Shown here in pieces: positions 6,907-31,020 of a stretch of DNA of 64,000 nt. This DNA comes from Clostridiales bacterium Firm_04 (lineage in GTDB: Bacteria > Bacillota > Clostridia > Oscillospirales > Ruminococcaceae). The position numbers and the translations under genes are program-made. Location: positions 1 to 64,000 of the forward strand of contig LVAJ01000025.1 in the NCBI GenBank assembly GCA_001603005.1. The letters are read 5' to 3'. The notes beneath the pieces were generated by a model. The model saw only the letters and a program-made list of their open reading frames with translations. It was not told the origin of the DNA and searched no databases. Every line of letters begins with the position of its first letter. Within the stretch, counting starts at the first letter, position 1.

Positions 6907-7635
6907 TCATTTCCGGATCCCGCCGCGCAGTCTGCACGCGATCACCTTCTGTGCCGCCAGATTACGGGTTTTCCGTTTCAGCAGTTCGAGCTGTCGTCTG
7001 CCGAAGCGTCTGTCCGCCGCTTTCAGGATATTGGCAATCCCCCAGCAGTCGTTTGCAAACTGCTTTGCGAACAGTTCCTCTTTCGGCGTATCGAGATATT
7101 CCCGCAGCAGCGCGGAGATATCGGAAATATCGTTCTCATAGGGATAGTGTGCCCGCTCCCCTTTCAGATTTTTCACGAAGCTGCCGGTCTCATCCTGATG
7201 AACAAACTGCTTCGGATCATCAAAAATGATCTCATCTCCGAGCGTGATCCGGTACCGCGGCAGATCCGTCGAGCCATACTGACTGCACATTCTGTATCGC
7301 GTCAGGTGGATCTGAAAATCAATCGTATCGTCTATGATGGGAGTGGCTGTTCAGGGATTTATTATTACGCATCCGGCGCGCACAGGATTAAAGTTTTTGA
7401 TCGAGCTTTTTTCAAAAAGCTCGCGGAGTCCAGAGGCAGAGCCTCTGGTCGCGATCCGCAGATCGCGAAACTCCCCAGCGTTCAAGAGCTTGGCGGGTTT
7501 GGGGACTTGCGATAGAAGTCCCCATTCTATAATAGCATCCGCGAAGCGGATTCCTCTTTTTTTATGACTCCCTGTTTCGACCACTCCCTCTATGATCCGG
7601 CAGATCTCTCTTTGCAGTGCGCTCCACCGCTTCAT
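6907..7635 (-). pseudogene. Small conserved gene (SF0329-like) split by a structured repeat element
   Basis: The 5' fragment starts at the ATG 7633-7635 with AAGGAG upstream, 17 nt after the SGNH hydrolase gene, and reads MKRWSALQREICRIIEGVVE. The 3' fragment (down to 6907) begins without its own start or ribosome site and reads IDFQIHLTRYRM...YRITLGDEIIFDDPKQF. Removing 7339-7572 (234 bp, divisible by three) joins them in one frame as ...VVET-IIDDTIDFQIH..., about 160 aa. The joined N-terminus resembles the SF0329 family of unknown function from memory only. As it stands the gene is broken. Confidence 0.7.
7339..7572 (-). repeat. Structured dispersed repeat, copy 1 (inserted in a gene)
   Basis: Read on the minus strand it contains five consecutive hairpins: 7537-7551, 7501-7523, 7451-7466, 7430-7448 and 7403-7422. 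The same succession occurs in copy 2 at 30841-31020. The first two hairpins and the linkers (CCCGCCAAGCTCTTGAACGC, TGTGCGCGCCGGATGCG) are nearly identical; the last three have different stems but matching loops. The edges 7339 and 7572 are inferred from the interrupted gene; short inverted ends GGGAGT/ACTCCC are visible. Confidence 0.8.
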
Positions 7636-30629: not shown

Positions 30630-30732
30630 ATTTTCACCTCATGATTCCGGATATTTGCATATACGCATATACATATATTATAGCATGCGGCAGCGGAAAT
30701 GTCAACGAAAGCGCGGCTTTCTCGCAGGCTGG

Positions 30733-30831
30733 CATGCCCGTTTTGTGCATGCCGCATTTGTATGTCGTTTTTGCATGTCCGATTTGTATGTCCGTTTGTA
30801 TGTTAGATTTGCATGTCAGAATGCATGTCCT
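30733..30831 (+). repeat. Short imperfect repeats of a TTTGTATGTC unit
   Basis: Units such as TTTGTATGTC, TTTGCATGTC and GTTTGTATGTT recur at 10-15 bp spacing through about 100 bp just before structured repeat copy 2. No gene in this stretch. Confidence 0.55.
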
Positions 30832-30840
30832 CAAAGAAGT

Positions 30841-31020
30841 ATCCGCTTTGCGGATATTATTTAAGAATGGGGACTTCTATCGCAAGTCCCCAAGCCCGCC
30901 AAGCTCTTGAACGCTAGGGGTATTTCGCTCTCTGCGGAGAGCGACGAGGGCGCTGCCCTCGACCTGCAAGCCTTTGAAAAGGCTTGAGCGAAACTTTAAT
31001 GCTGTGCGCGCCGGATGCGC
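30841..31020 (+). repeat. Structured dispersed repeat, copy 2
   Basis: Five hairpins in the same order as copy 1: 30841-30855 (ATCCGC-TTT-GCGGAT), 30869-30891 (GGGGACTT..AAGTCCCC), 30927-30942 (GCTCTC-TGCG-GAGAGC), 30945-30961 (CGAGGGC-GCT-GCCCTCG) and 30967-30986 (CAAGCCTT-TGAA-AAGGCTTG). Linkers are nearly identical to copy 1. It ends with TGTGCGCGCCGGATGCG, followed by the GC-rich hairpin unit at 31065. Confidence 0.8.

Follow-up and report, generated by a model that had tools for sequence, protein, structure and literature searches.

REP/BIME sequences, REPINs, and mitochondrial double-hairpin elements are dispersed intergenic hairpins that form mosaics. REP sequences have stems of conserved sequence that are associated with TnpA-REP, and the palindromes of REP/BIME are tagged with GTAG or CGTC; we know of no third segment in any of these elements. 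The bcr1 repeats of the Bacillus cereus group are dispersed elements of ca. 155 bp that have been described as folding with compensatory changes and as having mobile features. To our knowledge, they have neither shuffled modules nor a third segment, and we liken them to the repeat described here by description, not by sequence.

The published catalogue of intrastrand triplex motifs covers 5,246 genomes and plasmids, and TMECO is the one motif studied there in depth (Holder et al. 2015, PMC4666352). As portrayed in that paper, TMECO has a consensus of 37 nt and 23 intergenic copies in E. coli MG1655 that show no strand bias. Bacterial sequences of this kind, TMECO among them, can fold in vitro, but footprinting in E. 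coli showed no stable triplex in cells, and instability has been reported around TMECO (PMC4666352). The ITxF limits given in the same paper are a stem of 6-15 nt with at most one mismatch (from 7 nt) and loops of 1-6 nt, and the word beginnings "covaria" and "compensat" are absent from its main text. Guerillot et al. (2014, PMC3942029) describe mobile elements of the p-MULT 3 type (TnGBS/ISLre2) as having inverted repeats of 18-39 bp with a terminal C and 8- or 9-bp duplications, and as inserting in an oriented manner such that the right end lies 15-17 bp before the -35 box.

The repeat reported here is present in two copies in the window, i.e., the whole stretch of 64,000 nucleotides that was analysed, and comprises five hairpins that we call M1 to M5. 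Its modules M2, M4, and M5 resemble the intrastrand triplex motifs of PMC4666352 in their succession of arm, loop, arm, loop, and third arm, the third arm mirroring the middle one, and M2 (alleles b and c) and M4 correspond to class III of that scheme (R-Y-Y, Hoogsteen), M5 to class II (Y-R-R, reverse Hoogsteen). Unlike in TMECO as described there, the modules are chained and their stems vary widely in sequence and length, with a third arm that covaries; moreover, some copies have transposon ends, of which none were seen for TMECO. Copies with such terminal inverted repeats (TIRs) share with p-MULT 3 as described (PMC3942029) the terminal C and the oriented insertion before a -35 box, and some of them also a target duplication, but only some copies have these ends and no PF06782 was found in 30 genomes of the genus.

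The first-pass annotation had known no family of this description, and Rfam gave no match over the repeat, neither across the whole window at the gathering cut-off nor for six repeat loci down to an E value of 5. A literature search, which reached few subscription papers, likewise found no description of it. We lean slightly towards regarding the repeat as dispersed, non-coding, mosaic DNA in which an array of interchangeable hairpin modules is kept for its folded DNA shape.

Repeat copies in the window and across the family

The two window copies consist of the following parts.

7339-7588, minus strand: copy 1, a complete 250-bp element from TIR to TIR that carries the hairpin array
7589-7596, minus strand: target-site duplication, left copy, ATCATAGA
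7331-7338, minus strand: target-site duplication, right copy, ATCATAGA
7564-7588, minus strand: left TIR, GGGAGTGGTCGAAACAGGGAGTCAT, found by pattern match
7339-7362, minus strand: right TIR, which ends CCACTCCC
7537-7551, minus strand: hairpin M1 of copy 1
7501-7523, minus strand: hairpin M2 of copy 1 (allele a)
7490-7497, minus strand: weak mirror segment of M2 of copy 1 (5/8 bases)
7449-7468, minus strand: hairpin M3 of copy 1, TCGC GATC TGCG GATC GCGA
7430-7448, minus strand: hairpin M4 of copy 1, CCAGAGGC TCT GCCTCTGG
7424-7429, minus strand: third segment of M4 of copy 1, ACTCCG, mirroring the 3' arm
7402-7423, minus strand: hairpin M5 of copy 1, T-run n=5
7393-7401, minus strand: third segment of M5 of copy 1, linker of 3 nt, A-run of 5, C
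30840-31019, plus strand: copy 2, the same core without TIRs
30840-30856, plus strand: hairpin M1 of copy 2
30869-30891, plus strand: hairpin M2 of copy 2 (allele a)
30925-30944, plus strand: hairpin M3 of copy 2, TCGC TCTC TGCG GAGA GCGA
30945-30961, plus strand: hairpin M4 of copy 2, CGAGGGC GCT GCCCTCG
30962-30966, plus strand: third segment of M4 of copy 2, ACCTG (the mirror rule predicts ACCCG)
30967-30986, plus strand: hairpin M5 of copy 2, T-run n=3
30987-30994, plus strand: third segment of M5 of copy 2, linker of 4 nt, A-run of 3, C

Two copies with the same five hairpins in order had been recognized by the first-pass annotation, and all stems and loops that it quoted are present. It placed the strand and start of copy 1 correctly but let this copy end at 7572 instead of 7588, too short because most of the left TIR was omitted, and copy 2, given as 30841-31020, lies at about 30840-31019. 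What had escaped it were the TIRs and the target duplication that bound copy 1 and are lacking in copy 2, as well as the mirror-like third segment that follows M4 and M5 (and, in alleles other than that of the window, M2). Folded as DNA, copy 1 reaches a z-score of -6.1, and folded as RNA, copy 2 reaches -5.0, with none of 200 dinucleotide-preserving shuffles being as good in either case. Ahead of copy 2 lies a degenerate array of short ATGTC/GCATGTC-like units (window 30700-30835); such arrays, apparently another intergenic repeat, often precede source-genome copies without TIRs (e.g., L003, L006, and L011). The window edge is occupied by the end of a 16S rRNA gene (1-140).

In the source genome (3.54 Mb in 53 contigs, 88.6% complete), the repeat has 49 BLAST matches that we read as about 40 copies, and a search with covariance model R1, which covers hairpins M3-M5 and was built from 38 source-genome copies, gave at least 68 hits. 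Within the genus, R1 was positive in 27/30 genomes, including 13 of the 13 with a completeness of at least 90% and a contamination of at most 5%; at family level, it was positive in 49/197 genomes and 34/125 genera, and at class level in 17/391 genomes; copy numbers from these three R1 searches are lower bounds, with at most 125, 19, and 9 candidates scored per genome. A pattern scan of named genomes recovered at least 120 stretches with the repeat. Titles among the 80 matches listed include Oscillospiraceae, Ruminococcus, Butyricicoccus, Ruminococcaceae, and Clostridia, the cultured species Butyricicoccus pullicaecorum having several copies, and the M1-M2 style of the window copies occurs also in contigs titled Ruminococcus or Oscillospiraceae. 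The repeat pattern had no match in plasmid and phage collections and two matches in viral contigs.

Covariation of the paired arms in DNA or RNA

Stems 3-5 do differ between the two window copies and yet pair, as the first-pass annotation had pointed out, and the differences are discrete alleles present in many copies. Its step from double change to a selected fold holds in so far as the pairing is conserved across genus and family, and selection for the fold is the best reading, but two copies alone are insufficient to prove selection: since the stem differences are alleles reshuffled among copies, the case for constraint rests on many-copy statistics. In alignment A2, in which 47 hits (representing 42 of the 55 foreign loci) were fitted to R1, 98.9% of 1,059 pair cells are paired and double changes occur at 21 of the 23 pairs, in 208 cells altogether, compared to 79.7% and 12 pairs in shuffles. 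The covariation score is 0.539 versus 0.164 in shuffles and at most 0.132 with the 3' partner slid; in these slid structures, at most 50.3% of the cells are paired. Covariation across many copies, the check that the annotation itself had proposed, is thus strong. Because A2 had been fitted to a model, we checked it with an unfitted pattern scan of the collection in which the inner 4+4 bases of M3 were set to N. Among the 132 distinct copies obtained, 523 of 528 inner M3 cells are Watson-Crick pairs, and the inner arms occur in 34 combinations, of which 29 are perfectly paired. Pairing is looser in M4 than in M3 and M5, with 611 of 680 cells Watson-Crick in a pair-cell count that left out candidates with more than two mismatches (16 M4 and three M5 foreign candidates, one M4 candidate of the source genome, and any such M3 candidates), and a mismatch is tolerated there as judged from the one M4 mismatch in five of the 12 listed G173 copies.

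Near-perfect compensatory covariation need not mean RNA, and G-T pairs can tell the two apart: a fold selected as RNA from the strand read here should tolerate G-U far above A-C. The deviations in 2,114 cells outside the source genome comprise 14 G-T, 19 A-C, and 56 transversion-type mismatches, the latter mostly in outer M4 positions, so G-T makes up 0.7% and is no commoner than A-C. By comparison, 40 of the 578 pairs bracketed in 27 distinct tRNAs from these loci are G-T (6.9%), i.e., G-T is about 10-fold rarer in the repeat stems, and only G-T rates are compared here because tRNA brackets hide A-C. The G-U tolerance that marks structured RNA is thus missing from the repeat stems, and this deficit favours a pairing constraint that would act on DNA, not RNA; of the two options that the first-pass annotation had named, RNA or single-stranded DNA, the former is disfavoured.

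A structured non-coding RNA, or the RNA part of a mobile element, could be transcribed from the repeat and be selected for its RNA fold, possibly with base triples, which occur in RNA too. This would agree with the strong double-compensatory signal, with loops that are nearly constant on one strand, and with the good folding of copy 2 as RNA, but the G-T rate speaks against it, as do the lack of an Rfam match for window and six loci and the poor performance in RNA of purine-motif triples of the kind that M5 would form. There is also no strong orientation bias relative to neighbouring genes, since the four possible arrangements are represented by 16, 17, 26, and 13 of 72 placed foreign copies and by 4, 0, 3, and 8 of 15 placed own copies. 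We regard an RNA fold as quite unlikely.

The loops had been described as fixed, and they nearly are: at loci that were not picked by a loop pattern, M3 has the loop TGCG in 108 of 111 cases, TACG in two, and an inverted CGCA in one, so that it stands upright in 110 of 111. By group, TGCG is found in 80/80 pattern loci, in 42/42 own loci, and in 66 others alongside two TACG and one CGCA. An oriented count gave 150 TGCG and two TACG (n = 152, many of these loci having been picked by a TGCG-containing pattern). M3-like hairpins within 190 nt upstream of M3 carry the loop either way (TGCG in 30, CGCA in 6). Tandem M3-like hairpins with differing stems and the single loop TGCG are seen in L223 and L226, which suggests module amplification.

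A third segment that covaries with the stem

Behind M2, M4, and M5 comes a further stretch, the third segment, which is a mirror of the 3' arm and changes along with it in sequence. This feature is new here, and in M5 the third segment covaries with the stem in length too. M5 starts with a stem S of length s and a T-run of n, which pair across a short loop with the matching arm, and it continues outside the hairpin with a linker, an A-run, and a C. In 154 parsed blocks, the linker equals s-2 in 151 and the A-run of the tail equals the T-run in 152, with n ranging from 2 to 6. This length rule is obeyed by 29 of the 50 distinct (S, n) types and disobeyed by four, the other 17 having no parsable tail, and 11 stems obey it at two values of n each; counted by copy, 168 obey and four disobey, while 31 of 203 tails were not parsed.

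A coding origin of these lengths has to be considered, as in-frame palindromic coding elements are known from Rickettsia and steps of three would keep the frame. Block lengths do move in threes, one class modulo 3 holding 148 of 154 M5 blocks and 132 of 154 M4 blocks, and we therefore tested the reading frames. Stops interrupt 19 to 108 of the 154 blocks depending on the frame, copy 1 is stopped even in the most open one, and open stretches are alike in all six frames (medians of 46 to 66 codons). Furthermore, linker and run of M5 match separately and not merely in sum. With no frame open through all 154 blocks, a coding repeat is largely refuted and strikes us as highly improbable. Mechanically called ORFs that overlie 36 of 123 copies are read as chance ORFs in the repeat.

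For M4, the tail mirrors its own 3' arm and hence is the parallel complement of the 5' arm, e.g., CCAGAGGC with ACTCCG, CGAGGGC with ACCCG, CCAAAAGGGC with ATTTCCCG, and CCAGAGAC with ACTCTG. The match is often imperfect: the commonest tail of stem CGAGGGC is ACCTG, one base off the mirror, and stem CCAAAGGC mostly has AATCCG or AAACCG, one or two bases off. We scored M4 and M5 with one tail per distinct stem against 5,000 shuffles restricted to stems of the same length, which leave the relatedness among copies in place. Mirror identity is 101/133 for M4 (shuffle mean 83.3, maximum 95) and 195/293 for M5 (mean 172.9, maximum 188), and sliding the tail lowers the match in both. The analogous test for M2, anchored on M1, gave 107/168 for 21 distinct pairs (mean 84.9, maximum 106); in all three cases, none of the 5,000 shuffles reached the observed value. 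Perfect 8-base mirrors connect the M2 arms CTTTTCCC and CTTTCTCC with CCCTTTTC and CCTCTTTC, respectively, and seven of eight bases match between CTTTCCTC and CTCCTATC and between CTTCCCTC and CTCCCATC. The five all-pyrimidine M2 pairs taken alone give a weak signal (36/40, reached by 38 of 5,000 shuffles), and allele a, the one in the window, matches at only five of eight positions. M3 was seen on inspection to have no third segment.

Two Watson-Crick arms plus a mirror of the second are therefore found as perfect mirrors in M2b/c and through covariation in M4 and M5. Such tracking of the stem by a third segment, in length and sequence, is the type of comparative evidence by which RNA structures were established, and the repeat family supplies natural compensated triples. 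Many layers are non-canonical: the third base is A in 28 of 53 A:T layers of M4 (first layer omitted) and C in 49 of 94 inner C:G cells of M5, and the first loop of M2b/c is long. R-Y-Y triplexes also require protonated C. M4 offers about five layers in 8-bp stems, below the 6-nt minimum of the published triplex search (PMC4666352), and more in stems of 9-10 bp.

How a constraint on DNA shape could arise may be pictured as follows. Whenever the strand is single, i.e., during lagging-strand replication, in a transcription bubble, or upon transposition, each module would fold into a hairpin with its nearly fixed, strand-specific loop. At M2 (alleles b and c), M4, and M5, the strand would fold back once more so that the next segment could lie along the hairpin as third strand, in R-Y-Y order in M2b/c and M4 and in Y-R-R order in M5. 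The folded node would then probably stall polymerases or be bound by a loop-reading protein, and its shape would be kept for this reason, to the possible benefit of the host or the transposon. That the modules are selected, shape-recognized intrastrand DNA triplex units, the letters of whose layers change together and which mobile elements move and reshuffle as modules, is a tentative proposal that we hold to be possible but would not yet expect to be right. If true, selection would act on an intrastrand DNA triplex as a functional unit, and a three-stranded fold would be preserved across a bacterial family.

Module shuffling, ends, and probable mobility

Among 50 parsed own copies, modules M2 to M5 and the two end types recombine with one another: all four gametes are seen in 18 of the 36 combinations of allele pairs of M2 and M3, and the ends are TIR/TIR in eight copies, array without TIR in 27, and mixed in five, the rest being unread (shuffling tables that required an end or M2 excluded the rows in which it was unread). 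These discrete, freely recombining alleles could also be explained without any selection for shape if template switching or gene conversion kept the arms matched while recombination reshuffled a limited set of stem alleles. Arm copying of this kind predicts perfect arms without G-T, and it fits the existence of hybrid stems with one mismatch (L036 in M3 and the G173 copies in M4). M2 loops are inverted in three cases versus 55 upright ones, so hairpin inversion can occur, and the clearest example is L340 (G154), whose 7-nt M2 loop reads GCAAGAG for the CTCTTGC of the otherwise similar L338, by all appearances a natural hairpin inversion. However, the base-proximal pairs and the loop of M3 hardly vary in A2 while the pairs in between do, and arm copying yields reverse complements, not a mirror segment or a segment whose length is tied to the stem. 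We know of no process that makes a same-strand reversed third segment or ties its length to the stem, and judge arm copying unlikely, if less so than an RNA fold. Under the favoured reading of a kept DNA shape, the folded node would probably be a recombination point as well, which would agree with the reshuffling of modules and with the instability described for the surroundings of TMECO (PMC4666352).

The inverted repeats of copy 1 (GGGAGTGG...CCACTCCC) are imperfect; the element is flanked on either side by the 8-bp duplication ATCATAGA, and a -35-like TTGATT lies at 7317-7322, 16 nt past its right TIR. As far as can be told from the sequence, it is thus also a 250-bp MITE, a TnGBS/ISLre2-like insertion near a promoter. 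The inverted repeats of GGGAGTGG-end copies measure about 25 bp with a terminal C, which fits the p-MULT 3 range of 18-39 bp. Exact 8-bp duplications flank four of ten copies with both ends (L001, L009, L023, and L066); L002 has a 15-bp repeat instead, and the duplication is imperfect or missing in the other five. Of 16 right ends of the TIR type, 11 have TTGAC 14-17 nt downstream, whereas chance would place it 13-18 nt away at a rate of 0.6%. A promoter link of the whole core was rejected since 21 of 176 downstream stretches compare with 21 of 158 control stretches, which confines the link to TIR copies.

This position upstream of -35 boxes, the presence of copies in both orientations to genes, and the strand-symmetric pairing would suit hairpins that act in both directions as transcription terminators or insulators and travel on a MITE that goes into sites before promoters. 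Yet no T-tract was seen on inspection directly after a hairpin, loops and third segment would be left unexplained, and an earlier study cited in PMC4666352 saw no promoter or terminator activity for TMECO, all of which makes such a function very unlikely in our eyes. As for the movement of a DNA array kept for its shape, GGGAGTGG-end copies have most likely been moved in trans by a TnGBS/ISLre2 (p-MULT) DDE transposase that targets sites just upstream of sigma-A promoters, and copies without GGGAGTGG ends would have spread perhaps by recombination into existing copies. The PF06782 transposase was found in none of the 30 genus genomes, with no control genome matching either, and in five of the 197 family genomes (three above cut-off); PF00872 was not found in the source genome. 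One family member, L343, has an ISLre2-like gene flanked by a different inverted repeat, and facing GGGAGTGG ends lie at most about 320 bp apart.

Type-c ends (CAGNNTGTCGA) bound five of 268 copies on both sides in a loose search. In each of L218 and L168, which have the end type CAGNNTGTCGAWAAA, the two flanks share a terminator-like hairpin, as though a whole terminator had been part of a long target duplication. Extra hairpins are found within the M4 and M2 loops of several own copies (L012, L023, and L020; L005, L009, and L022).
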